Of a DNA stretch of 64,000 bases, positions 8,159 to 21,715 are shown piece by piece. The stretch is taken from positions 1,612,001-1,676,000 of the forward strand of contig NZ_JBAKFF010000001.1 of NCBI RefSeq assembly GCF_040838345.1, in the 5' to 3' direction. Below the pieces are notes generated by a model. That model had not been told where the DNA came from, ran no database searches, and saw only the letters and a program-made list of their open reading frames with translations. The first letter of the stretch is position 1, and each line of letters opens with the position of its first letter. The DNA is from Spiribacter sp. 1M189 (lineage in GTDB: Bacteria > Pseudomonadota > Gammaproteobacteria > Nitrococcales > Nitrococcaceae). The translations under genes were made by a program, and so were the position numbers.

Positions 8159-8662
8159 ATGCCGCACTACAACGTCCTTTTCCTGTGCACCGGCAACTCG
8201 GCGCGCAGCATCCTCGCGGAAGCCCTGCTCAACAGCATGGGCAAGGGCCAGTTCACCGCCTACAGCGCCGGCAGCTTCCCCGCCGGCGAGGTGAACCCGC
8301 TCGCACTGCGGACCCTGGAGCAGATGAAGCTCCCCACCGAGGGGCTGCACAGCAAGAACTGGGACGTCTTCGCCACCGACGATGCCCCGCGGATGGATTT
8401 CGTTTTCACCGTCTGCGATCGCGCCGCGGCGGAGGCCTGTCCTATCTGGCCGGGACAGCCCATGACGGCGCATTGGGGGCTGCCGGACCCCGCCGCGGTC
8501 GAGGGCAGCGAAGAGGAGCGGATGCGTCGCTTTCGGGAGACCGCCATCGCCCTTCGCAGCCGCATCGGTCTGTTCACCAACCTGCCGATCAGCTCGCTGG
8601 ATCGACTCAGGCTGCAGAAGGAGATCGATACCATCGGACGGCAGGATGATCCGGCGACATGA
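8159..8662 (+). CDS. arsC: Arsenate reductase ArsC, low-molecular-weight phosphatase type
   Basis: Reduces arsenate to arsenite in the cytoplasm. The 167-residue protein has the LMW-PTPase P-loop C10-TGNSAR-S17, with the nucleophile C10 and R16, plus C86 (VFTVCDRA) and C94 (EACPIWPG). The second and third cysteines can relay the disulfide to thioredoxin or glutaredoxin. It is not the glutaredoxin-fold ArsC of E. coli R773. It is first in arsC-arsR-acr3-arsH. Its stop overlaps the arsR start in ATGA at 8659-8662. Confidence 0.92.
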   Translation: MPHYNVLFLCTGNSARSILAEALLNSMGKGQFTAYSAGSFPAGEVNPLALRTLEQMKLPTEGLHSKNWDVFATDDAPRMDFVFTVCDRAAAEACPIWPGQPMTAHWGLPDPAAVEGSEEERMRRFRETAIALRSRIGLFTNLPISSLDRLRLQKEIDTIGRQDDPAT

Positions 8663-9042
8663 TGCAGGCCGCGACCAGCCCATCGGACACCCGGCTCGAT
8701 CCGGCCCGCTTTTTCCGCCTGCTGGGCGAGGAAACGCGCCTCCGTACGGCTGTCCTGCTGCACCGGCAGGGAGAACTCTGCGTCTGCGAACTCACCGAGG
8801 CGCTGGGCGTCAGCCAGCCGAAGATGTCCCGGCATCTGGGCCATCTGCGCGACGTAGGTCTGGTGGAGACCCGCCGCAGCGGCCAGTGGATTCACTACCG
8901 GCTGCGCAGCGATCTGCCCGCCTGGGCACATGATCTGCTCACCACGGTGGCCGGAGATCTGGCCGACGAACCGCCATTCTCCGGCGATACGGCCCGGGTA
9001 CGCCGGGCGATCGCACGTAACCGAAGCGAGTGTGAACAATGA
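8659..9042 (+). CDS. arsR: ArsR family arsenite-responsive repressor
   Basis: Winged-helix metalloregulator, 127 residues. The arsenite-binding pair C41-V-C43 (ELCVCEL) lies at the start of the DNA-contacting region, followed by the recognition helix [17 protein letters not shown]. The third cysteine of E. coli ArsR (C37) has no equivalent here. Binding of As(III) or Sb(III) should release it from the operator candidate at 8105-8116. It overlaps both neighbours by four bases, so it is translationally coupled. Confidence 0.92.
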
Positions 9043-10130
9043 GCGTGCAGTGTGAAGTGACCGGCCGGCGGGCGGCCGGTGACGTCATGGGGATCTTCGA
9101 GCGCTACCTGAGCGTCTGGGTGGCGCTGGCCATCGTCGCCGGCATTGCCCTTGGCAAGTTCTTCCCGGGCGTCTTCGAATGGTTGAGTGGTCTGGAAGTG
9201 GCGAGCGTCAACCTGGTGGTGGCGGTGCTGATCTGGGCGATGGTCTATCCCATGATGATCAACGTCGACTTCAGCTCGCTGCGCCATGCAGGCGACAAGC
9301 CGAAGGGGCTCACCATCACGCTGGTGATCAACTGGCTGATCAAGCCCTTCACCATGGCGGGGCTGGGTGTGCTTTTCTTCCAGGGTGTCTTCGCTGGCCT
9401 GGTGCCGCCGGACGACGCCAAGGCCTACATCGCCGGCATGATCCTGCTGGGCGCCGCGCCATGCACGGCCATGGTGTTCGTCTGGAGCCAGCTTACCGAC
9501 GGCGATGCCACCTACACCCTGGTTCAGGTGGCAATCAACGATCTCATCATGGTGTTCGCCTTCGCGCCGCTGGTTGCCCTTCTGCTGGGGGTGGCCGACG
9601 TGATCGTGCCCTGGCAGACGCTACTGCTCTCGGTCGGGCTGTATGTGGTCATCCCGCTGCTCGCCGGCGCACTGACGCGTCGGAGGCTGATGAGCCGCGG
9701 CGGAGAACAGGCCGTGGAGCGATTCACCGGACAGATCAAGCCGGTGACGATTATCGGTCTGGTCGTCACGGTGTTGCTGCTCTTCGCGTTCCAGGGCGAG
9801 CGCATCCTGACTCAGCCGTTGATCATCGTGCTCATCGCCATTCCGCTGATCATCCAGAGCATCGGTATCTTCGGGCTCGCCTACCTCTGGGCGAGAGGCT
9901 GGAGCGTGCCCATCGGCATCGGTGCCCCTGCCGCGCTCATCGGCACCTCCAACTTCTTCGAGCTCGCCGTGGCAGTGGCCATCAGCCTGTTCGGACTCAA
10001 CTCCGGGGCGGCACTCGCGACCGTTGTGGGCGTGCTGGTGGAAGTTCCGGTGATGCTGGCGCTGGTCAAGCTCGTCAATGGCTCGCGCGCCTGGTACGAA
10101 CGCCATATGGCCGGCGGAGCCAGTGCATGA
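9039..10130 (+). CDS. acr3: Arsenite efflux permease Acr3
   Basis: Exports arsenite across the inner membrane. The 363-residue protein has about ten hydrophobic segments and belongs to the bile acid:sodium symporter superfamily, unlike ArsB. The essential Acr3 cysteine is seen as C142 in [15 protein letters not shown]. The start at 9039 overlaps the arsR stop (ATGA). An internal ATG at 9087 (MGIFERYLS) would remove a 16-residue extension and is also possible. Database entries often call such genes arsB. Confidence 0.93.
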
Positions 10131-10843
10131 GCAACGACGATACCTTCCCGAACCTGGAGGCCTCGGCGCTTCACGCCATCGACGACGGGCGGCTACTGGC
10201 AGGGCCCGGGGAGGAGCCACCCCGCATCCTGCTGCTGTATGGCTCCCTGCGGGCACGCTCGTTCAGCCGCCTGGCAGCTGAGGAGGCCGGCCGGATCCTG
10301 CGCAGGCTGGGCGCCGAGACCCGCTTCTTCGACCCGGCGGGACTCCCGCTGCCGGATGATGCCGATGCCGACCACCCGCGGGTACAGGCGCTGCGCGAAC
10401 TGGCGAAATGGTGCGATGGCTTCGTCTGGTCCTCTCCGGAACGCCATGGATCCATGACCGGCATCATGAAGGCGCAGATCGACTGGATCCCCCTCAACCT
10501 TGGCGGGGTCCGGCCCACGCAGGGCAAGACGCTTGCGGTAATGCAGGTCTGCGGCGGCTCTCAGAGCTTTAATGCCGTCAATCAGCTCCGCCTGCTGGGC
10601 CGCTGGATGCGGCTGATCACCATCCCCAATCAGTCATCGGTCCCCAAGGCCTACCTTGAGTTCGACGATGATGATCGGATGAAACCGTCCCCCTACTACA
10701 ACCGCATCGTCGACGTGATGGAAGAGCTGGTGAAGTTCACCCGTCTGACCCGAGGCTGCCGGGACTACCTGGTGGATCGCTATTCGGAACGGGTCGAGAG
10801 CACCGAGGCACTCTCGGCCCGCGTCAACCAGCGCTCCCTATAG
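10127..10843 (+). CDS. arsH: Arsenical resistance protein ArsH (NADPH-FMN reductase family)
   Basis: ArsH is a flavodoxin-like NADPH:FMN oxidoreductase that in studied bacteria oxidises trivalent organoarsenicals. The 238-residue product has the FMN phosphate-binding loop GSLRARSFS (39-47) and the family segment [20 protein letters not shown]. The start ATG 10127 overlaps the acr3 stop. The same frame is open far upstream inside acr3, but those codons are a shadow. Its presence suggests resistance beyond inorganic arsenic. Confidence 0.92.
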
Positions 10844-10925
10844 CATCGGTAGCGGAAGGCGGCGGGTGCATGAACGCCCGGCTTCAGCCACAATCTGGTC
10901 TGGGAAACTGAGGAGGAGAAAAACC

Positions 10926-11786
10926 ATGACCCCAGCACGCCGCTTGCGCGAACTCATGCAGAACGAACCCCCCGTGGTCGCCCCCGGCGCCTTTGACGGC
11001 CTCTCGGCCCGGCTGGTGGAACAGGCCGGCTTCCCCGCGGTGTATGCCACCGGCGGCGGCATCGCCCGCAGCAACGGGATCCCTGACCTCGGCCTGATGA
11101 GCCTTGACGAGATCGTCAAGCGGCTGGAGAGCATGGTGGAGGTGGTCGACATCCCGCTGATCGGCGATGCCGATACCGGGCACGGCAATGCCCTCAATGC
11201 ACAGAAAACCGCCCGCGCCTTCGAGCGCGTCGGTGTCGCCGGCTTCCATCTTGAGGATCAGGTCTTCCCCAAGAAGTGCGGGCACTACGAGGACAAGTCC
11301 ATCGTCCCGCAGAAGGAGATGACCCAGAAGCTGCGTGCGGTGAAGGATGCCTTCCACGATCCGGACACGGTGCTGATCGCCCGCACGGACGGCCTGGCCG
11401 TGGAGGGCTACGGTCCCACCATCGAGCGGGCCCATGCCTACATGGAGGCGGGCGCGGATGCGATTTTCGTAGAGGCGCCCACCTCGGAGGAGCAGATCGA
11501 GCAGATCGCCCGCGACCTCCCGCAGCCCAAGCTCATCAACATGTTTCATGGCGGCAAGACGCCACTCATGCCGGTGGACCGCCTTGGCGAGCTCGGCTAC
11601 AGCCTTGTCATCATCCCCAGTGACACACAGCGGGCCGCCATCAAGGGGATGCAGGACACCCTCGAGGCGATCCGGCGCGATGGACACAGCGCGTCCATGC
11701 AGGAGCGGATGGTGACCTTCAAGGGTCGCGAGGAAGTGATCCGGACCGCCGATTACCTGGCGCTGGACGAGAAATACGGCGCCTGA
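10926..11786 (+). CDS. Isocitrate lyase/PEP mutase family enzyme (possible methylisocitrate lyase)
   Basis: A 286-residue TIM-barrel lyase of the ICL/PEP mutase superfamily. Metal-site residues appear in GDADTGHGN (D81, D83) and the active-site cysteine motif KKCGH at 116-120. The strand YATGGGIARSNGIPDLG resembles PrpB (SGGGVA..GLPDLG), so 2-methylisocitrate lyase is plausible; oxaloacetate decarboxylase or another carboxylate lyase are alternatives. The start follows a strong AGGAGGAGAAAAACC. prpC and prpD lie elsewhere (24880-27450) without a prpB. It is convergent with aceA, another member of the superfamily. Confidence 0.75.
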   Translation: MTPARRLRELMQNEPPVVAPGAFDGLSARLVEQAGFPAVYATGGGIARSNGIPDLGLMSLDEIVKRLESMVEVVDIPLIGDADTGHGNALNAQKTARAFERVGVAGFHLEDQVFPKKCGHYEDKSIVPQKEMTQKLRAVKDAFHDPDTVLIARTDGLAVEGYGPTIERAHAYMEAGADAIFVEAPTSEEQIEQIARDLPQPKLINMFHGGKTPLMPVDRLGELGYSLVIIPSDTQRAAIKGMQDTLEAIRRDGHSASMQERMVTFKGREEVIRTADYLALDEKYGA

Positions 11787-11797
11787 ACCGGCAGCGG

Positions 11798-11824
11798 AAA
11801 AAAAACCGGGGGCCGAGGCCCCCG
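11798..11824 (-). terminator. Intrinsic terminator of aceA
   Basis: Read on the minus strand, a CGGGGGC/GCCCCCG stem (11807-11813 with 11818-11824) with a four-base loop is followed by GG and eight T residues (complement of 11798-11805). An A-run also flanks the other side, so a plus-strand transcript lacks a good U-tract. It therefore mainly serves aceA. Confidence 0.8.
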
Positions 11825-11871
11825 TAAAAAAAGTGGGTGGCGATCACAACCCACTCAGGCAGTCGTTGAAA

Positions 11872-13161
<1,290 letters not shown>

Positions 13162-13256
13162 CACTCACGCCTCCTCTGGGCCTTGGTCGCAGACTCATCG
13201 ACGCCATCGGTGTCGATGGATCGACCATATGCGGCGTTGCACCATTGCACAAGGTA

Positions 13257-13303: not shown

Positions 13304-14308
13304 ATGGCAGCGTCCCTTAACAAGGCCCCGAACTACCGTCAGGACCGTCTGCGGCAGCTGCGCGCATTCTGTTTCACGGCGGAGGCGGGCAGCATCTCCC
13401 GCGCCGCGGAGCGGCTCGACGTCACCCAGCCGTCTGTCTCTCTGCAGGTCCAGGCCCTGGAGCGGGACCTGGGCATTACCCTGTTCGAGCGCCGCGGCCC
13501 CAGGATCCGGCTGACCCCGGATGGCGAAGCGCTCTACGCCGAGGCGCACAAACTGGTGGAGTCCATCGACGGACTGGCGGGACGCTTCGCGGAGGGCAAC
13601 CGGCCGCTGGATAGCGGGCGCCTCGATATCGGTGCCGGCGAATCCTCCACGCTCTATCTGCTCCCACCAACCCTTGAGCGGTTCATGGACCAGCATCCCA
13701 ACGTCCAGGTCCGCCTGCACCATCTATCGGTGGGTGAGCTGATGGACGCGCTGCGGCAGGATCAGGTGGACTTTGCCGTGGGCGCCATCCTCGATATGCC
13801 CGATGAACTCCGCTACCGGGCGATCTACTCCTACGGCCTGTCACTGATCACGCCGCCGGATCACCCGCTCGCCCGGCGTGACGTCATCACCATGCGCGAT
13901 CTCGCCGGCCAGGACTACATCATACCGCCCAAGAACATGACCACCTGGCGGCTGATCAATCTGGTCTTCCAGCAGCATGCGGTGCGCTATCGGGTCCGTC
14001 TCGAGGTAGGCAGCTGGGAGGCCGTCAAACGCTACGTGGGACTGGGGTTTGGTATCGCCATCGTCAGCAATGTCTGCCTGGCCGAGGATTATCCCGGCAT
14101 CGTCGTCCGATCACTGCCCGAGGTCTTTCCCAAGCGCACCTATGGCGCCATGTCGCGCCATGGGCGGTTCCTCTCGCCACAGGCCCGTCGGTTTCTGGAG
14201 ATGATGCGCCCGGATTTCTTCGAACCCGAGACCGACTCCGCCTCGCACCGGCGGGCTCGTGGCGAGACACCCGGCTTCATTGCCGCGGACGGCGTCGATG
14301 CCGTCTAG
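13304..14308 (+). CDS. LysR family transcriptional regulator (CysB-like)
   Basis: A 334-residue LTTR. The N-terminal winged HTH (about 15-75) contains AAERLDVTQPSVSLQVQALE, followed by a LysR substrate-binding domain (about 100-300). The effector domain shows the usual GESSTLYLLP and LGFGIAIVSN segments. It is divergent from aceA across 142 bases with a T-N11-A site, so control of isocitrate lyase is a reasonable inference; the effector is unknown. Its TAG stop overlaps the stop of the convergent kinase gene in the palindrome CTAG. Confidence 0.88.
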   Translation: MAASLNKAPNYRQDRLRQLRAFCFTAEAGSISRAAERLDVTQPSVSLQVQALERDLGITLFERRGPRIRLTPDGEALYAEAHKLVESIDGLAGRFAEGNRPLDSGRLDIGAGESSTLYLLPPTLERFMDQHPNVQVRLHHLSVGELMDALRQDQVDFAVGAILDMPDELRYRAIYSYGLSLITPPDHPLARRDVITMRDLAGQDYIIPPKNMTTWRLINLVFQQHAVRYRVRLEVGSWEAVKRYVGLGFGIAIVSNVCLAEDYPGIVVRSLPEVFPKRTYGAMSRHGRFLSPQARRFLEMMRPDFFEPETDSASHRRARGETPGFIAADGVDAV

Positions 14309-16293
14309 CCCTCGGCGGCGGGGAACCAGAGGGTAAAACAGCTGCCCCTGCCGGGCTCGCTCTCCAGCGCCACCCGGCCACCATGGACAGACATCACCTG
14401 GCTGACCAGATAGAGGCCGATCCCCATTCCCCGGGTGCTGAGATTGTTCGGCGCGCGGTAGTGCTTGTCGAAGGCCTGCGCCTGCTCCTCGGCGGACATA
14501 CCAACGCCGTGATCGCAGACGCGGATGCCCACCTCGCCCCCGCTATGCAGCACCCGGATCTCGATGGGCTCACCCTCGGCCGAGTACTTCGCCGCATTGT
14601 CCACCAGGTTATGCACGGCATTCCCCACCAGGGCCTCGTCGGCCTCGATGACGCCGGCCAGCTCGCCCATTTCCAGCGGATGCCCGGTTCGCAGATTGCC
14701 CGGGCGCAGCAGCCCCGGCAGCCACTCCGCCAGGTCCAGCCGCACCGGCTCCAGCGCCGAGTCCCCCTTGGTGAGGCGGTCGCTCTCCAGCCATTGCTCG
14801 AACAGGAGCTGCAGCCGTCCGGCCGCCTCTTCGATGGCTTCGAAGCGCTTGAGCGGATCACCCACCGCCCGGTCACGCTCCATGCGCGCGACCTGTGCCT
14901 GACCGGCGATCACCGCCAGCGGATTACGGAATTCATGTGAGATCAGGCCCGCAAACTCCACATACTGATCCAGCATCGCTCGCTCCCGAGCCAGCGCTTT
15001 TTCCAGATCGCGGGTACGCTGTTGGACCACGCCCTCCAGGCGCTGCTCCGACGCCCGCAGTCCTTCCACCAGCTGGCGTTCCGCCTGCAGGGCCTCCATC
15101 TGCGCCTTTTCACGACCGCGGCGTTCGGTCTGGATCCGGTCGGCCAGCGCGAAGGAGAGCAGCAGCATTTCCAATAGCGATCCAATCTGCAACAGATTCC
15201 CGGTGATGACCGTGGTGGGGATCAGGGCGAAATTGCGAAGCGCCTGGACGAAGACCGCGACCAGCAGAAACGCCCAGGCCAGCAACAGATATCGGGCACC
15301 GGGATGCCCGCGGCGCCAACTGCGGAAACTGATCAGCAACAGGACCGGACCAGTGAGGCTGCCGGCGACGCTGATGGCCACCGACCCGAAACGCACCGGA
15401 ACCTGGAGCACCGGCAGCAGCGCGATCACCAGGAAAACGCCGGCGAGCGCCAGCAGCAGCCCATCCAGTCGCGGCTGCTCGCTGCGGGTGGCAAGAAACT
15501 CCCGCACGAAAAGGATGCCGAAGATACCGGCCAGCGCGAACAGGCTGTTGGTACCCAGGGTGTCGGGCCAGCCCGGCCAGGCCAACAGCAGATAGGTCCG
15601 GAAACCGTTATGGACCGTCATGGCAACGCCAACGAACAGCAGGAAGGCGCAATAGAGCGCGTACTGCCGCTCGCGCAGCGAGAAGAACAGAAAGAGGTTG
15701 TAGAGCAGCAGGCCGAACAGCACGCCGAAGTAGATCATCAGCCCGGCGAACTGCAGCCGGTCCGAAATGACGAACGCATCGGACTTCCACAGCGTAAGCG
15801 GTACGGTCACCGAGCCATTGGATGATACCCGCAGGTAATAGGTCTGGTCTGTATCCGGCCGCAACGTGATCGGGAACAGGAAATGCCGGTGAGGTAAGGG
15901 ACGCTCGTCCACCGCCTCGTTATATCCGGTGCGCAGTCCGGCGCCGTCTGGCGGATAGAAGCGCACGTCCACCAGACCGAAGTAACCCACCTCGAGCAGG
16001 TATTCGCTTACCGCCGGTGCCCGCGAGTCCAGCTCGAGTCGCAGCCACCAGACGGAGTCACTGAGCCCCAGATTGAGGGCCGCCGAATCATCATGGGATC
16101 GAAAGCGCCCGGCGTAGCGCCCGCTGCGCACCGCCTCCACGGTCAGCTCGCCATTCGGGTCTTCCAGGTACTCGACATCAGGGTTCAGGTTGACGGCATC
16201 CTCGTCGGTCACCACCACTGCCTTGGCGGGCAGGCACACTGCAATGCCCAGCAGCAGCCAGATGACCAGTCGGGTACACGGATTGCGGCGCAC
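14305..16293 (-). CDS. 7TM-DISM sensor histidine kinase (orphan)
   Basis: A 662-residue hybrid-free sensor kinase. It has a signal-like segment (8-25), an extracytoplasmic 7TMR-DISMED2-like domain (about 38-170) and seven membrane segments (about 180-385). A coiled coil (388-440) leads to a HisKA domain with ISHEFRNPLAV (H453), an N-box NAVHNLVDNAAKYS, and a C-terminal ATPase with GVGMS and GMGIGLYLV. The DISMED2 fold can bind carbohydrates or related ligands in other proteins. The start is GTG at 16293. No response regulator is adjacent. It follows the MotB-like gene by 8 bases on the same strand, so co-transcription with the motor pair is likely. Confidence 0.88.
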   Translation of the reverse strand: MRRNPCTRLVIWLLLGIAVCLPAKAVVVTDEDAVNLNPDVEYLEDPNGELTVEAVRSGRYAGRFRSHDDSAALNLGLSDSVWWLRLELDSRAPAVSEYLLEVGYFGLVDVRFYPPDGAGLRTGYNEAVDERPLPHRHFLFPITLRPDTDQTYYLRVSSNGSVTVPLTLWKSDAFVISDRLQFAGLMIYFGVLFGLLLYNLFLFFSLRERQYALYCAFLLFVGVAMTVHNGFRTYLLLAWPGWPDTLGTNSLFALAGIFGILFVREFLATRSEQPRLDGLLLALAGVFLVIALLPVLQVPVRFGSVAISVAGSLTGPVLLLISFRSWRRGHPGARYLLLAWAFLLVAVFVQALRNFALIPTTVITGNLLQIGSLLEMLLLSFALADRIQTERRGREKAQMEALQAERQLVEGLRASEQRLEGVVQQRTRDLEKALARERAMLDQYVEFAGLISHEFRNPLAVIAGQAQVARMERDRAVGDPLKRFEAIEEAAGRLQLLFEQWLESDRLTKGDSALEPVRLDLAEWLPGLLRPGNLRTGHPLEMGELAGVIEADEALVGNAVHNLVDNAAKYSAEGEPIEIRVLHSGGEVGIRVCDHGVGMSAEEQAQAFDKHYRAPNNLSTRGMGIGLYLVSQVMSVHGGRVALESEPGRGSCFTLWFPAAEG

Positions 16294-16301
16294 GTCTGCG
16301 G

Positions 16302-17621
16302 CTAACGGTTGCCAAGGCGCAGCTCGATGCGCCGGTTCCGGGCCAGCGCCTCGGGACTGTCGCCTTCGGCGATGGGTTGGTATTCACCGTAGCCCACCGC
16401 CGCCAACCGCTCTGGCGGGACCCCCTTGTCGATTAGAAAGTCGAGGATGGACTGGGCGCGTGCCGTGGAAAGCTGCCAGTTGGAGGGGAATTCCGGCGTG
16501 CTGATCGGGCGCCGATCGGTATGTCCCTCCACCTGCAGTACCCAGTCGATCTCCGCTGGAATACGATCCGCCACCCGTTGGAGAATGCTGGCCACCTGCT
16601 CGAGTCGTTCTTCACCACCCGGGCCGATTTCCGCGGAGGCAGTCTCGAAGAAGAGCTCCGACTGGAAGCGGAATCGATCGCCGACGATCTCGATTTCCTC
16701 GATATCGCCGAGCACCTCGCGGAGCCGGCCGAAGAATTCAGACCGGTAGCTGGAGAGCTCCTGTACCTCCTCGGCAAGGGCCACGTTGAGCCGCTCCACC
16801 AGCGTATCGATGCGCGTGCGCTGCTCGGCAACGGTGTCCTCTTCCACCCGCAGGGCCTCGGCAAGCGCACTGATCTGATCGCGCAGGGCGCGTATCTGCC
16901 GGCGCAGGGCCTCGACGCGTGCCTCAGCATCGGCGCTCAGCTGCGCCTCCTGCTCGAGCGCTCGCTGTCGGTCCTCAATCTCCGCCACCAGATCACGGAT
17001 ACGCATCTCGCGCGCCTCGATCTCCTCCTGGGCAAGCAGCGTGCGTTCCTCGGCATCCGCGAGCGCCGCCTGCAGCTCGCGGTTGCGGTCGCGCAGCGCA
17101 CCGAGCTCCGTGCGCGTATCGGCCAGATCGGTTTCGGTCTGCTCAAGGCGGGTCACCAGCGCGCCGACCTGTGACTCCAAATCATCACGAACCGCCCGCA
17201 GTGCCGAGATCTCCTGCTGCAGCATGGCAATCTCCAGCAGGCTCGCCTCGAGATCAGACTCGCCGACCGCAATCCGCTCGCGGGCCGCGTCGAGCTCCTC
17301 ACGCGTCAGCGCAAGCGCTTCCCGAGCCTCATCGCGCTGCGAGAGCGTCGCATGCAGTTCGGCGTAGAGATCAGACACCTGCTCCTCGAGCCGGGCCCGC
17401 TGACTGCGCTCCATGGACAGCGCGTCGGCCATGTCCGAGAGTTCGGCGCGCAATGACTCCAGCGCCTGGTTGCGGTCCGAGAGTTGGGTGCTGAGATAGA
17501 GCTGCGCCACCACGAACAGGAGTAGCACGAAGACGAAGGCGAGCAGTATGGTGGCCAGGGCATCAACGAACCCCGGCCAGATATTCACCGATGATCGGTT
17601 GCGGCGACTGCTCCCGAGCAT
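16302..17621 (-). CDS. MotB-like envelope protein: one TM, long coiled coil, OmpA peptidoglycan-binding domain
   Basis: A 439-residue stator-like subunit. A single TM (about 14-42) carries an acidic residue, D20 in WPGFVDALATILLAF, placed like the proton-binding Asp of MotB and ExbD. A very long Glu/Arg/Ala-rich coiled coil (about 45-310) follows, then an OmpA/MotB domain (about 330-435) with VEGHTDRRPIS, NWQLSTARAQ and RNRRIELRL. Flagellar MotB has no such coiled coil. It lies 7 bases after the MotA-like gene and 8 before a sensor kinase. It is probably anchored to peptidoglycan and driven by ion flow; the biological task is unknown. Confidence 0.85.
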   Translation of the reverse strand: MLGSSRRNRSSVNIWPGFVDALATILLAFVFVLLLFVVAQLYLSTQLSDRNQALESLRAELSDMADALSMERSQRARLEEQVSDLYAELHATLSQRDEAREALALTREELDAARERIAVGESDLEASLLEIAMLQQEISALRAVRDDLESQVGALVTRLEQTETDLADTRTELGALRDRNRELQAALADAEERTLLAQEEIEAREMRIRDLVAEIEDRQRALEQEAQLSADAEARVEALRRQIRALRDQISALAEALRVEEDTVAEQRTRIDTLVERLNVALAEEVQELSSYRSEFFGRLREVLGDIEEIEIVGDRFRFQSELFFETASAEIGPGGEERLEQVASILQRVADRIPAEIDWVLQVEGHTDRRPISTPEFPSNWQLSTARAQSILDFLIDKGVPPERLAAVGYGEYQPIAEGDSPEALARNRRIELRLGNR

Positions 17622-17628
17622 CAGGTCG

Positions 17629-18774
17629 TCAGTCCATGCCGCCGTTGTTGAGGTGCGACACGGTGCGCGTCAGTAATCTGACTTCATCCCGCAGCTCGGT
17701 CATCAAGCGCTCGCGATCGGCCACCAGCTCCTGGCGGAGCTCTTGCAGCCCCTGAGCCATGGCCCGGAGTTGCTCGATCTGTTCCGTGTCGTGGCTACCA
17801 CGCGTCTCGCTGACATCGGCCAGCCGGCCGAGCACGCCCTGCAACTCCGACTGGGTGCGGGTAAGCCCGATCAGCCCACGCTGTTCCGTATGGGACTGCT
17901 CGGCCAGACGCGACACCTCCTCGGTCAGCTCGATGATGCGCGCATCCACACTACGGCGTTCCTCGTCGCCGCGCGCCATGATCCGCTGGAGTTTATCGAG
18001 ACTGTCGGCGGTATTCTCGAGCAGGGCTTGAATATAGGCGGGCACCGAGCCTTCGCCATCCCCCCCGAGGGCGCCACTGGACAGCCGCGTCTGACCGGAT
18101 AGCCACTCCTCCAGGTCATTATAGAAGCCGTTCTGGGCATGAGAGGCCTGCAGATCCACAAACCCGAGGACGAGGGCGCCGGCCAGCCCGAACAGCGACG
18201 AACTGAACGCGGTACCCATCCCGGTCAGCGGCGCCTGCAGACCATCCCGGAGATCGGCGAAGATCTGTCCGGCATCGGTGCCGTCAACGCTCAGATTGGC
18301 GATCACGGCACCCACCGCACGAAGCGTATCGAGCAGCCCCCAGAAGGTGCCCAGCAGACCGAGGAACACCAGCAGGCCGATGAGATAGCGCGAGATGTCC
18401 CGAGACTCATCCAGACGGGTGCGGATGCCATCCAGCACCGTGCGCATGGACATGGCCGAGAGGCTGAAGCGGTCGCCACGCCGGCCGGTGAGCATACGCG
18501 CCATGGAGCCAAGCAGGCGGGTGCCGGGAAGCGACGGGGCGTCACCCTCTTCGGCATGGCGGAACCGCTCCACCCAGTCGACTTCGGGCTTTAACACCAC
18601 GACCTGGCGACAGTTAATGACCAGGCCGATGAACAGCACGGCCAGGATCATGCCATTGAAAATTGGATTGGCGAGAAAGGCGTCACTGAGCGGCTGCAGA
18701 AGCATTCCGCCAACTGCCGCAACAGCGGCCAGGAAAACAACGATCCAGATCAGGACGCGATTGGGATTGCGCAC
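17629..18774 (-). CDS. MotA/TolQ/ExbB-like proton-channel protein
   Basis: A 381-residue inner-membrane protein with TM segments near 7-25, 38-55, 128-150 and 184-206, the MotA/ExbB layout. The third TM region (LIGLLVFLGLLGTFWGLLDT) and fourth (GMGTAFSSSLFGLAGALVLG) are the family hallmarks. A soluble C-terminal tail (about 240-375) is predicted to be coiled coil. The start is GTG at 18774 after GGGGGAAATG. With its MotB-like neighbour it should form a 5:2 ion-driven rotary unit. ZorAB of Zorya is related, but no zorC, zorD or zorE lies nearby. Confidence 0.85.
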   Translation of the reverse strand: MRNPNRVLIWIVVFLAAVAAVGGMLLQPLSDAFLANPIFNGMILAVLFIGLVINCRQVVVLKPEVDWVERFRHAEEGDAPSLPGTRLLGSMARMLTGRRGDRFSLSAMSMRTVLDGIRTRLDESRDISRYLIGLLVFLGLLGTFWGLLDTLRAVGAVIANLSVDGTDAGQIFADLRDGLQAPLTGMGTAFSSSLFGLAGALVLGFVDLQASHAQNGFYNDLEEWLSGQTRLSSGALGGDGEGSVPAYIQALLENTADSLDKLQRIMARGDEERRSVDARIIELTEEVSRLAEQSHTEQRGLIGLTRTQSELQGVLGRLADVSETRGSHDTEQIEQLRAMAQGLQELRQELVADRERLMTELRDEVRLLTRTVSHLNNGGMD

Positions 18775-18882: not shown

Positions 18883-19932
18883 ATGAATGATGCAACGCGC
18901 ATTTACCGAACCGGCCTCGGGCTCGCGCTGCTGGTACTGGCGGGCTTCCTGATTTACTGGTTACGTCCGATCCTGACGCCTTTCCTGGCTGGTGCGCTGC
19001 TCGCCTATCTCGGTGATCCGCTCGCCCGCCGGCTGCAACGTGTGGGACTGAATCGCACGCTTGCCGTCAGCCTCGTCTTCCTTGGCCTGACAGCGGTGGC
19101 AGCCGCCGTGGTCCTGATGTTCATCCCGCTCGTCGGCCGCCAGATCAATATGCTGCAGTCGCAGCTACCGGCCATGCTCGAGTGGGCGCAGTCACAGGCA
19201 ATCCCCTGGCTGGAGCAGACACTGGGTGTCGACCCCGCCACGTTCGACCTTGCCGCCCTGCGCACCGCGGTCTCGGAGCACTGGCAGTCCACGGGCAATG
19301 TCGCGGCAGAGCTGATCCAGCGACTGACCCGCTCGGGCCTCGCCCTGGCCGGCGCCCTCGCCAGCCTTGCACTGGTGCCGGTCGTGGCTTTCTATCTCCT
19401 GCGCGACTGGGACCGGGTACTCGCCGCGGCGCTGGACACCCTGCCGCCGGCCTGGCGCAGGACCGCCGCCACTCTGGCGCGCGAGTGCGACGAGGTCGTC
19501 GGTGCCTTTCTGCGCGGCCAGCTGCTGGTGATGATCAGTCTCGGCATCTTCTACGGTCTGGGGCTCTGGCTCGTTGGCGTTCAGTTCGGTCTTCTGATCG
19601 GCCTGCTCTCCGGGCTTGCCGCGGTGGTACCCTATCTGGGGTTCATTGTGGGCATTGCCGCGGCCAGCGTCGCCGTCCTCTTCCAGTTCAATGACTGGTT
19701 GATTCCGTTGCTACTCGTCTGGGTCGTTTACGGGGGCGGACAGGTGCTGGAATCCGCCGTATTCACCCCGCTGTTCGTGGGCGACCGCATCGGCCTGCAT
19801 CCCGTGGTGGTGATCTTCGCGGTGCTCGCCGGCGGTCAGCTGTTCGGCTTTGCCGGGGTTCTGCTGGCACTGCCGGTGGCGGCAGTCATCGCGGTTCTGC
19901 TCCGACACGCCCATGCCTTCGTCACGGGATAG
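18883..19932 (+). CDS. AI-2E family transporter / PerM-like permease
   Basis: A 349-residue polytopic membrane protein of the AI-2E/PerM family (UPF0118). About eight TM segments include an N-terminal pair (LLVLAGFLIYWLRPILTPFLAG). A central soluble stretch (about 85-150) precedes a C-terminal hydrophobic block with GLAAVVPYLGFIVG and GGGQVLESAVFTPLFVGDRIGLHP. Members export autoinducer-2 in some bacteria and act in Na+/H+ antiport in halophiles, so the substrate is open. It starts the perM-to-DUF4139 operon and is divergent from the motor genes. Confidence 0.88.
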   Translation: MNDATRIYRTGLGLALLVLAGFLIYWLRPILTPFLAGALLAYLGDPLARRLQRVGLNRTLAVSLVFLGLTAVAAAVVLMFIPLVGRQINMLQSQLPAMLEWAQSQAIPWLEQTLGVDPATFDLAALRTAVSEHWQSTGNVAAELIQRLTRSGLALAGALASLALVPVVAFYLLRDWDRVLAAALDTLPPAWRRTAATLARECDEVVGAFLRGQLLVMISLGIFYGLGLWLVGVQFGLLIGLLSGLAAVVPYLGFIVGIAAASVAVLFQFNDWLIPLLLVWVVYGGGQVLESAVFTPLFVGDRIGLHPVVVIFAVLAGGQLFGFAGVLLALPVAAVIAVLLRHAHAFVTG

Positions 19933-19939
19933 CGCTGCG

Positions 19940-20152
19940 ATGCGTCGAGACAACGAATTTCCTCCGCCGCCCCGCGAGCCGGATCTTGACGAGTGCTGTG
20001 GCAATGGCTGCGATCCGTGTGTGTTCGATCTCTACGATCAGCGGCTCGAGCGCTGGCGGAGGCGCTGCGACGCCCTGCGGGCATCGGCGGGCAATCGTCA
20101 GCAGTCGCGACCGGATCAGTCCGGCACAACCTCAACGGATGAGCCGGCATGA
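19940..20152 (+). CDS. Small cysteine-rich protein, oxidoreductase-like domain
   Basis: A 70-residue protein with the proline-rich start PPPPREPDLDE and a compact Cys cluster CC-x2-C-x2-C (ECCGNGCDPCVFDLY). This matches the short oxidoreductase-like N-terminal domain family (PF09791-type). The function is unknown; a metal or redox site is plausible from the cysteines. The ATG at 19940 lies 7 bases after the permease stop. Its stop overlaps the next gene in ATGA. Confidence 0.7.
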   Translation: MRRDNEFPPPPREPDLDECCGNGCDPCVFDLYDQRLERWRRRCDALRASAGNRQQSRPDQSGTTSTDEPA

Positions 20153-20643
20153 TCCGCCTGATCAGCGCACTGCTCCTGGTGCTGTTCCTCGCCTTCATGC
20201 TCTCGTCCCGATTCCGCGGCTGGCTGAGAGCAAGGGCGCCGATGCTCATTCTCGGCTCGATCGCCGCGGTCGCCATCGCGCTCGCCGCCACCGGTCGTCT
20301 CAACTGGATCTTCGCGGCCGTCAGCGCAGCGCTACCCTTCATCTGGCGGCTGGCGTCACTGTTGCGATTCCTGCCCTGGATCGCACGGCTCACGGGACAC
20401 GGGCGTGCCGCCTCTGCGGATGACAATGGCGCCGGGGCCAACCGCCCGGCCCGATCAGACGGCCGCATGAGTCGTGAAGAAGCGGCGGAACTGCTGGGGG
20501 TTGCGCCGGATGCCGAGCGCGAAGAGATCCTGGCTGCCCATCGACGACTCATGCAACGGCTGCACCCCGATCGGGGTGGCACCGACTACCTGGCGGCAAG
20601 GCTTAACGAGGCTCGCGACCGACTGCTGGGGAAACCACAGTGA
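20149..20643 (+). CDS. Membrane-anchored J-domain protein (Tim14/Pam18-like)
   Basis: A 164-residue protein with two hydrophobic segments near the N-terminus (1-18 and about 30-65) and a C-terminal truncated J-domain (about 105-164). The J-domain has MSREEAAELLGVAPDAE, the HPD motif in LHPDRGGTDY, and no G/F or zinc region. It should recruit DnaK to the membrane. The topology, TM then J-domain at the C-terminus, matches Pam18/TIM14-like type III J-proteins. It overlaps both neighbours (ATGA upstream, GTGA downstream), so it is tightly coupled to lrgA. Confidence 0.82.
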   Translation: MIRLISALLLVLFLAFMLSSRFRGWLRARAPMLILGSIAAVAIALAATGRLNWIFAAVSAALPFIWRLASLLRFLPWIARLTGHGRAASADDNGAGANRPARSDGRMSREEAAELLGVAPDAEREEILAAHRRLMQRLHPDRGGTDYLAARLNEARDRLLGKPQ

Positions 20644-20996
20644 TCCCCGCTTTCATCGCCCTGGTCCTCCTTCTCCAGCTGGCCGGCGAAGCGCTGGTCA
20701 GGGCCCTCGGCATCCCCATCCCGGGACCCGTCATCGGCATGATCCTGCTGCTGGTGATCCTGATCTTCCAGGGCGGCCCGCCCAAACCCCTGCAGGCACT
20801 GGCGAACGGCCTGCTCAATCACCTGTCGCTGTTGTTCATACCCGCAGGCGCGGGTGTCATCAGCTATCTGGCCCTGCTCGCGGACAATTGGTTGGCCGTC
20901 CTGTTGACGATCAGCATCAGCACAATACTCGCGATCGTCGTGACGGCCTTTACCCTGAAATTCCTGCTAAGACGCATGAACCGGGAAGATTCCTGA
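20640..20996 (+). CDS. lrgA: CidA/LrgA family membrane protein
   Basis: A 118-residue protein with about four TM helices. It has the holin-like CidA/LrgA signature IPIPGPVIGMILLL and FIPAGAGVISYLALL. The family modulates murein hydrolase activity, cell lysis or pyruvate transport in other bacteria. The GTG start at 20640 overlaps the J-protein stop in GTGA. It is followed directly by its usual partner lrgB. The CidA and LrgA names cannot be told apart by sequence alone. Confidence 0.85.
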   Translation: MIPAFIALVLLLQLAGEALVRALGIPIPGPVIGMILLLVILIFQGGPPKPLQALANGLLNHLSLLFIPAGAGVISYLALLADNWLAVLLTISISTILAIVVTAFTLKFLLRRMNREDS

Positions 20997-21715
20997 TGGA
21001 CGACCTTTTCCAGATCTGGGTCTACCTTGCCGAACAACCCCTTCTCTGGCTGGCGGTCACGGTCTCGGCCTACGTGGTGGCGCAGCAGCTGTTCCAGCGC
21101 TCCGGCGGGTTCCCCCTGCTTAATCCTGTGCTGGTCGCGATCACCCTGGTCGTACTGCTGCTGCTCGCCACCGGCACCCAGTACAACACCTACTTCGAAG
21201 GTGGCCAGTACGTCCATTTCCTGCTCGGGCCCGCCACGGTACTCCTGGCCGTTCCGCTGTACGCCCAGCTTCACCGGCTGCGACGCCAGTGGCTGCCACT
21301 GAGTATCGCCCTGCTGGTGGGCTCCGTGACGGCCATCGGCAGCACGGTGGCCCTGGGCCTTGGCCTGGGTCTCGGCCCATCGACCCTGATGTCATTGATG
21401 CCGAAATCAGCGACGACGCCGATCGCCATGGGCGTCGCGGCGAACCTCGGCGGCGAGGCCGCGCTTGCCGCTGTGTTCGTGATGCTCAGCGGGATCACCG
21501 GCGCCGTGGCCGGCATTCCGCTATTGCGCCTTCTCGGCGAGCGGGACCCGGCCGTCAAGGGCTTTGCCGTGGGCGTCACCGCCCACGGGATTGCTACCGC
21601 ACGGGCCTTTCAGCACAGTAACCAGGCCGGAGCGTATGCCGGCCTGGGCATGGGCCTCAATGGCGCGCTGACGGCGCTCCTCGTGCCGCTGTTCGCCTGG
21701 TTGTTCGGCCTCTGA
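20996..21715 (+). CDS. lrgB: LrgB/CidB family protein
   Basis: A 239-residue polytopic protein of the LrgB (YohK) family. It shows NPVLVAITLVVLLLL, FLLGPATVLLAVPLY, the hallmark LMPKSATTPIAMGVA and AHGIATARAF. The ATG at 20996 shares one base with the lrgA stop (TGATG). The open frame extends far upstream into the J-protein gene, but that part is out of the family. Together with LrgA it forms a membrane module linked to autolysis control or pyruvate/glycolate movement in studied organisms. Confidence 0.9.
   Translation: MDDLFQIWVYLAEQPLLWLAVTVSAYVVAQQLFQRSGGFPLLNPVLVAITLVVLLLLATGTQYNTYFEGGQYVHFLLGPATVLLAVPLYAQLHRLRRQWLPLSIALLVGSVTAIGSTVALGLGLGLGPSTLMSLMPKSATTPIAMGVAANLGGEAALAAVFVMLSGITGAVAGIPLLRLLGERDPAVKGFAVGVTAHGIATARAFQHSNQAGAYAGLGMGLNGALTALLVPLFAWLFGL

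Follow-up and report, generated by a model that had tools for sequence, protein, structure and literature searches.

What does a pair of MotA/MotB-like genes do when it stands apart from flagellar, Tol/TonB and Zorya genes, and does a sensor kinase encoded directly behind the pair belong to the same device? The question is raised by positions 14305-18774 of a 64,000-nucleotide stretch of Spiribacter sp. 1M189 DNA (the window: C1:1612001-1676000 of a 1.95 Mb genome), where the minus strand carries three closely spaced open reading frames (ORFs). These encode, in 5' to 3' order, a MotA/ExbB/ZorA-like channel subunit of 381 residues (protein A; GTG start, 17629-18774), a MotB-like subunit of 439 residues (protein B; ATG start, 16302-17621; called as an ORF and as a member of family NF006543) and a 7TMR-DISM histidine kinase of 662 residues (HK; GTG start, 14305-16293; called as an ORF and by its Pfam domains). 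The gaps are 7 bases between A and B (17622-17628) and 8 bases between B and HK (16294-16301), and the ORF coordinates agree in this with an earlier note on the same DNA. (All coordinates given below for parts of A and B refer to the minus strand.)

The first two genes constitute a conserved pair that is widespread in Alphaproteobacteria. The comparison covers 121 loci: the window, 40 loci of its order, and 80 loci on genome contigs that are the best 80 of 581 relatives (588 stretches); this set includes duplicates, L074 and L080 being one stretch and L145 and L147 coming from one contig. A match to B follows A in 120 of the 121, the exception being a locus (L076) that ends 258 bases past A, and the two genes share a strand in each of the 113 loci that allowed the two starts to be located; there the gap has a median of 9 bases and is 166 at most. 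A is present in 43 of 54 genomes of the order (E 1e-10), in all 14 genomes of the window's genus, and in 163 of 241 genomes of an evenly drawn sample of Alphaproteobacteria (1e-20), 159 of which have one match and the other four two. At 1e-8 a 20-row profile of A matches 129 of 397 genomes of the phylum; by hand count 110 of these matches are strong (E <1e-80), 6 are intermediate and 13 are weak and have long ORFs. Two loci of the weak group (L192 and L195) are Zorya by PADLOC, five of the intermediate loci (L198-L202) were taken as SiiB-like, L199 and L201 by ORF reading, and the sixth (L203) was placed with the core family of A.

Seven alphaproteobacterial genomes of 0.7-1.0 Mb (G522, G544, G619, G654, G234, G581 and G600) retain A, which argues for a core role (genomes lacking a match, small ones included, are listed in part for the phylum and the Alphaproteobacteria). 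A plasmid-borne system can be rejected, since A is found in only 5 of 72,556 plasmid records, all of them replicons of 3.5-4.6 Mb. By its distribution the pair looks vertically inherited and mostly single-copy rather than part of a defence island, and on these grounds its role is probably a housekeeping one.

Protein A is, as the earlier note proposed, a MotA/ExbB-like protein with a tail. The Pfam MotA_ExbB model gives it 18.6 bits in hmmscan, below the cut-off of 22.9, and 24.8 bits, slightly above that cut-off, in a six-frame search with neighbouring stretches added; its top PADLOC match is ZorA (49.3 bits, E 6.8e-14). Helices are predicted by AlphaFold2 at residues 4-24, 26-33, 37-73, 89-97, 107-159, 168-230, 246-324 and 330-376. 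Two of these, both long, make up residues 107-230 (18085-18456; model and alignment) and bear conserved Thr/Ser residues: T143, S191 and S193 are present in 55 of 55 aligned rows and T188 in 52. Residues 246-376 (17647-18039) constitute a predicted cytoplasmic helical tail, near the end of which the alignment places a conserved tip motif, R-D-E-V-R-L-L-T-R-T (residues 362-371; 17662-17691). A loose pattern finds this motif in 103 of 118 members, and about 8 of the remaining 15 are near variants by eye. The length of A is nearly constant across the family at ~380 residues, while B ranges from ~315 to 787.

Structural comparison of the A model leads consistently to one superfamily. The top Foldseek rows are ExbB and TolQ, ZorA and MotA appear within the first 50, and all 50 rows shown belong to the 5:2 motor superfamily. 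VIA-align places TolQ at Z 11.6 (root-mean-square deviation 4.1, 192 residues aligned) and ZorA at Z 11.2 (3.7, 194 residues), and its first 27 rows (Z 11.6 to 9.6) are TolQ, ExbB, ZorA, MotA or PomA only; the absence of GldL from this listing carries no information. A profile search (A1) against Protein Data Bank sequences returns 8 matches at E 0.05-0.5 with no named stator among them, so that the solved stators appear to lie beyond the reach of sequence alone. The closest fold class of A, on these moderate scores, would thus be that of TolQ, ExbB, ZorA and MotA.

Protein B also answers to its earlier description as MotB-like, with an aspartate in its transmembrane helix, a long coiled coil and an OmpA domain. 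It matches the NCBIfam family NF006543 (PRK09039.1-2, "peptidoglycan -binding protein") at 394.4 bits, against a cut-off of 305 that is passed in none of 14 control genomes; its Pfam OmpA match has an E-value of 1.1e-17, and its top PADLOC match is ZorB (82.6 bits). Asp20 (codon at 17562-17564), located by alignment in the N-terminal transmembrane helix and predicted to be its ion-carrying acid, is present without exception in the 44 members aligned. The OmpA-type domain, residues 324-430 (16332-16652; Pfam, fold and alignment), is predicted to bind peptidoglycan; its D369 and R388 are invariant in the same number of rows, and the best structural matches of the C-terminal domain include the periplasmic domains of MotS, MotB and PomB. 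AlphaFold2 models B as a helix at residues 15-166, a second helix at 173-304, and an OmpA fold. A transmembrane acid in B, conserved Thr/Ser in A, and the A-subunit fold are together the features of a member of the 5:2 motor superfamily.

Between the membrane and the wall-binding domain lies a stalk whose length obeys a rule. Residues 36-277 of the window's B (16791-17516) keep a nearly constant hydrophobic heptad phase (24-49 degrees) that runs on through a break in the predicted helix, the heptad amplitude being lowest around residues 96-137. There is no proline in this stalk, nor in 116 of 120 stalks examined. (Stalk length is defined operationally as the distance from a WPGFVD-type motif at the transmembrane helix to a Y-x-x-[ED]-F-type motif preceding the OmpA domain; the set comprises 126 B proteins, 125 of them distinct, of which 120 have both anchors and are all distinct, and 6 lack the C-side anchor.) Stalk lengths extend from 151 to 622 residues, and 106 of the 120 equal 4 modulo 7; of the 14 exceptions, 12 are consistent with the stutters or stammers of coiled coils. 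With a second C-side anchor 104 of 124 proteins fall in one modulo-7 class, and with the initial, stricter anchor 90 of 100. Counting each length once leaves 42 distinct lengths, 31 of which are in the class where 6 are expected (p 5e-18), and of the 11 outside it 9 deviate by 3 or 4 modulo 7, as a stutter or stammer would. Close relatives behave in the same way: of the near pairs, taken without overlap, 60 have stalks of unequal length, and in 46 of these the difference is a whole number of heptads (p 3e-27); in the 14 pairs left it is 3 or 4 modulo 7 in 12 cases. The tail of A does not display the rule (largest class, 25 of 64), but its length hardly varies and it therefore serves as a weak control.

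That the lengths belong to one class modulo 7 and that one heptad phase persists over residues 36-277 indicates a phase-locked, parallel coiled-coil shaft. At the ~0.149 nm rise per residue of a coiled coil, its 242 residues would extend ~36 nm if straight. The alternative of an antiparallel hairpin, prompted by the interruption of the predicted helix, is disfavoured: the heptad phase is continuous through the break, and single indels without a counterpart are found at position 98 of the window protein (14 residues, L007) and at position 108 (7 residues, L017). A parallel coil is favoured by these unmatched indels and also by the heptad multiples separating near pairs, among which odd values (28) are not rarer than even ones (18). 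The length rule is a new, testable structural feature.

How might such a pair work? We lean, without great assurance, towards a motor of the 5:2 class that is driven by ions and anchored to peptidoglycan, in which a cytoplasmic rod is turned around a phase-locked shaft and the output is delivered through the rod. The stoichiometry would probably be A5B2, with a B dimer whose OmpA domains, at the far end of the long parallel coiled coil, hold it to the wall. The ion path would run between Asp20 of B and a ring of Thr/Ser residues in A, and by analogy with ZorAB and MotAB the flow would turn the A pentamer and its rod around B; for ZorAB, rotation of A and its rod around B has been proposed (PMC11890865). 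A stalk of free length and fixed heptad phase would constitute a torsionally locked shaft, preserving the angular register of the pair of ion sites relative to the wall anchors. An estimate in PMC9389320 puts the torque at which an anchoring coiled coil would uncoil near the highest that motors of this kind produce, which may be a reason for phase and continuity to be kept while length drifts. Force or motion would most likely be delivered to the cytoplasm by the constant-length rod of A and its conserved tip. Whatever the mechanism, it must explain a mostly fixed cytoplasmic rod combined with a phase-locked periplasmic shaft of free length.

Several observations weigh against this model. About 7 of the 118 members clearly do not have the tip motif of A, and three A proteins have shortened tails (258 residues in L203 of genome G234, 267 in L204 of G123, and 243 in L205 of G186). 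The confidence of both models is moderate (mean predicted local distance difference test, pLDDT, 70.7 for A and 75.1 for B), the best Foldseek E-value for A is 4.4e-3 with none below 0.001, and the best VIA-align Z, 11.6, is less than the 13 that the tool advises and that helical bundles can approach by arrangement alone. AlphaFold2 interrupts the helix of B at residues 167-172, with low confidence, at a place where many indels also fall. One and the same set of proteins both suggested the stalk rule and served to test it, and its p-values assume an independence of pairs and lengths that is only roughly the case. Finally, there is the matter of space. In E. coli the two membranes are 30-32 nm apart (in hyperosmotic medium, according to the legend) and the outer membrane lies ~10 nm from the centre of the wall (PMC8824477), which by subtraction leaves ~20 nm between inner membrane and wall. 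A straight stalk of 36 nm is too long to stand upright in an envelope of those dimensions, and must tilt, bend or reach elsewhere.

The loci with shortened tails are of interest in their own right: in L203-L205 an A of the core family adjoins a B of ~355 residues, and these natural variants could be informative on the role of the rod.

The main rival of output through the rod is a Tol- or Ton-like energiser that acts on a periplasmic or outer-membrane partner, the rod being structural; this is possible, though we consider it unlikely. In Alphaproteobacteria the partner would be the product of a third gene that directly precedes A, in the same orientation, in 40 of the 80 genome-contig loci (38 in Alphaproteobacteria and 2 in Gammaproteobacteria), and in 33 of the 66 loci with at least 1.5 kb of upstream sequence. 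Those third-gene proteins that were read have an exported look, a Pro/Ala-rich linker and an OmpA-type end. Pfam OmpA is above cut-off in all 7 scanned, 6 of which are from the 40; 29 of the 40 have a hydrophobic stretch near the start and 24 have an LSLSRALAVR-type motif by a strict pattern (some of the 40 end at a contig edge). The third gene is nevertheless found in none of the 14 genomes of the window's genus, its profile gives only weak matches, mostly to the OmpA end, in 7 of the 54 genomes of the order, and a wall anchor is already present in B. Membership in the Tol or Ton systems proper is rejected, because this genome has a tolQRAB-pal locus and an ExbB/TonB locus elsewhere. Its three other MotA_ExbB matches are, by ORF reading (as is the naming of the tol genes), TolQ, an ExbB next to a TonB-like gene, and an ExbB next to comEC and an msbA-type exporter gene. 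A rhodopsin-like ORF of 278 residues adjoins ExbB/TonB-like genes of the same genome (L157, C1:673001-689000). Other genes recur at the 80 genome-contig loci: one of the inositol-monophosphatase family in 28 and one for EF-P in 24, with a single example of each verified by Pfam.

A passive or gated tether that senses length, its slack stalk opening the channel when inner membrane and wall separate (in plasmolysis, lysis or phage entry) and with no steady rotation, would make sense of a stalk that exceeds the distance from inner membrane to wall in E. coli; an opening of the ZorAB channel upon phage-induced wall binding has also been suggested (PMC11890865). Against it stands the roughly fourfold variation in stalk length with phase kept, which suggests that length itself is not what is fixed, and we regard this explanation as improbable.

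The earlier note tied the device to the signalling kinase, and this is the part of that note that fails; in one form of the idea motor and kinase are a single signalling unit, with HK reporting the state of the motor. The 8-base gap between B and HK, and the same gene order in three other genomes, invite the idea. In all, HK is directly beside the pair in 4 of the 121 loci (the window, L035 of genome G048, L040 of G046 and L042 of G040), all in the window's genus and none outside it, so that the pair is a conserved unit and the trio is not. An HK homologue is present in 11 of the 14 genomes of the genus, and in 7 of these 11 it lies elsewhere in the genome; a three-gene unit is accordingly rejected. 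(At 41-56% identity these seven unlinked homologues may be other paralogues.) HK also diverges faster than the pair, with 88% identity between G000 and G048 compared with 98% and 96% for A and B. Since the kinase is unlinked in relatives, a device tied to it fails as a general system by the earlier note's own reckoning, and we consider a motor-kinase unit very improbable. What did hold is the description of HK itself as a 7TM-DISM kinase without a response regulator: its DISMED2, 7TMR-DISM_7TM, HisKA and HATPase_c domains are all above their Pfam cut-offs, and the nearest of 10 Response_reg matches in the genome is ~26.7 kb away. With that distance and such rare linkage, HK is an orphan kinase, a local neighbour outside the conserved system.

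An accessory role in the type I secretion of an adhesin, in the manner of SiiAB, is a shade less probable again. Relatives that group with the core family against TolQ and ExbB do lie beside secretion genes (HlyD, RTX-repeat and ABC-exporter genes in L198, HlyD and RTX in L200, HlyD in L202, each next to a SiiAB-like pair), and an ABC exporter gene is convergent with B and just downstream of it in 11 of the 80 genome-contig loci. (Examples of the convergent arrangement are L106, L108, L113, L118 and L142; also L220, L221, L158 and a Sinorhizobium meliloti record.) On the other side, none of the 10 window neighbours scanned is a HlyD, RTX or ABC gene (neighbours at the 121 loci are annotated only in part), and the exporter, where four relatives were scanned, is best matched in each by the MsbA-related TIGR02204 (above cut-off in 3) rather than by a type I secretion ATPase. 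As it is on the opposite strand, the exporter is probably not part of the A/B unit. One SiiB-like locus has a different setting: in L201 a 122-residue ORF and then an EF-P-like gene come after A, an arrangement that resembles alphaproteobacterial core loci.

That the pair is a flagellar stator or a remnant of Zorya has next to no probability, superfamily membership and best PADLOC scores of at most 49 bits (ZorA) for A and 83 bits (ZorB) for B notwithstanding, because none of the 14 genomes of the genus has FlhA and all 14 have A, because another genus of the order has the converse (FlhA in 7 of 9 genomes, A in 0 of 9), and because those scores are far below the Zorya controls (ZorA 1113 bits, two ZorB 376 and 392 bits) while the ten neighbouring genes have no PADLOC match. 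The stator is rejected on the FlhA counts, and a Zorya system on the same scores and neighbours. The PADLOC search of the ten neighbours was made at E 0.001, and the search for zorC, zorD and zorE was confined to them. One control locus also has ZorG (302 bits), and in L192 the gene before ZorA is without a PADLOC match. Two further statements of the earlier note are thereby borne out: the pair is related to stators, ExbBD and ZorAB (by fold matches, PADLOC matches to ZorA and ZorB, and the tree described next), and no flagellar, Tol/TonB or Zorya partner genes are adjacent to it.

The tree, built on 124 columns of the channel region in 67 rows, separates the core family, the SiiB-like proteins, ZorA and two long MotA-like proteins from TolQ, ExbB and MotA (99/99), and leaves core, SiiB-like and ZorA rows unordered among themselves. 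Six of nine ZorA-like regions were used, and no A ORF was called in L191, L193, L196, L215, L218, L219, L223, L224, L226 or L228. The MotA rows do not form a side of their own, the core family requires two changes, the inner branches are very long and the bootstrap is unsettled. With long branches, few columns and unsettled support, the tree is a lead and not proof of origin; as a lead, it suggests that ZorA and the SiiB-like proteins are the nearest kin of A. The two long MotA-like proteins are encoded by ORFs of ~600 residues with a GTFVG motif (L255 and L259, in genomes G033 and G009 of the order). They stand on long branches on the side of core, SiiB and ZorA, and may represent a further, uncharacterised type of channel.

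Taking these lines together, A/B can tentatively be thought of as a rotary motor anchored to the wall, of an ancient class with a housekeeping role and near the stock of ZorAB and SiiAB, with a rod of fixed length and a shaft that changes only by heptads, stutters and stammers under one angular register, and that in a few Spiribacter-like genomes stands beside, and is perhaps wired to, a 7TM kinase; so full a statement is possible rather than likely.

The surroundings of the three genes can be described briefly. A convergent LysR-family gene (13304-14308) shares the four bases of its end with the end of HK. On the other side, an AI-2E family transporter gene (18883-19932, plus strand; neighbour scan) is divergent from A; an AI-2E gene occupies this upstream position in 20 of 37 loci of the order with at least 1.5 kb upstream (window counted) and in 0 of 66 such loci outside it. 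Further out, an ArsR-like regulator, an SBF/ACR3-like transporter and an ArsH-like ORF follow in series (8659-10843; ORF reading, SBF by Pfam) and probably make up an operon for arsenic resistance. A PEP mutase/isocitrate lyase-family gene is convergent with an isocitrate lyase gene (10866-13164), and a small protein with a sub-threshold DnaJ match, LrgA and an LrgB-like ORF are closely spaced at 20149-21715.

Was the system undescribed, as the earlier note surmised? In part: B bears the NCBIfam name NF006543, and in the literature searched (most subscription papers being outside its reach) no description of the function of NF006543/PRK09039 was found, PRK09039 appearing there as a table entry with an unrelated predicted function and in no functional study. 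A motor pair whose channel subunit is present in about two-thirds of sampled Alphaproteobacteria is thus without a described function in that literature. It offers a non-defence relative from which to ask how Zorya arose, and the heptad rule makes its mechanics testable, in that torque or register transmitted through a coiled coil should make phase matter and length not.

Comparison with known systems places the pair more closely. Flagellar MotAB and PomAB resemble A/B in the transmembrane aspartate and OmpA-type domain of their B subunits and in the fold of A; A/B differs in belonging to a genus without FlhA and in the helical cytoplasmic tail that A carries past its last transmembrane helix. 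TolQR and ExbBD share the A-type fold and the conserved Thr in its long helices, but A/B has an OmpA domain in B, and the genome has its own Tol and Exb/Ton loci. In a survey of such proteins (PMC12505986, in the parts available) A/B homologues are split into flagellar and generic ion transporters, no OmpA homology is discerned in the generic B subunits, and ZorAB is left out of the trees. Being non-flagellar and yet having an OmpA domain in B, the present pair seems to be outside that two-class scheme; nor is it among the known motors and new transducers in the available portion of PMC12204202.

SiiAB, which serves type I secretion from Salmonella SPI-4, is a proton-channel pair with a wall-binding SiiA (PMC12607715). 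SiiB-like relatives of other genomes group near the core family (Salmonella SiiAB itself being outside the comparison), but the window's pair has no type I secretion locus beside it and has a long coiled coil and a clear OmpA domain in place of a disordered linker. In ZorAB, ZorB binds the wall and ZorA has a rod in the cytoplasm that is required for function (PMC11890865). It is like A/B in that rod, in the transmembrane aspartate and OmpA-type wall-binding domain of ZorB, and in its side of the tree. The proportions are different: control ZorA has 722 residues and ZorB 214-215, which makes for a longer rod and a short stalk. Moreover, Zorya works with partner genes, whereas A/B has none among its ten neighbours, is mostly single-copy and hardly occurs in plasmid records. 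In a Sinorhizobium meliloti record the two proteins of the pair are called 'MotA/TolQ/ExbB proton channel family protein' and 'peptidoglycan -binding protein', and NF006543 shares the latter name with B, with no function, partner rule or stalk rule found attached to it. The motor superfamily is thus known, and the B family is named though uncharacterised; what is new is the structural rule of the stalk.

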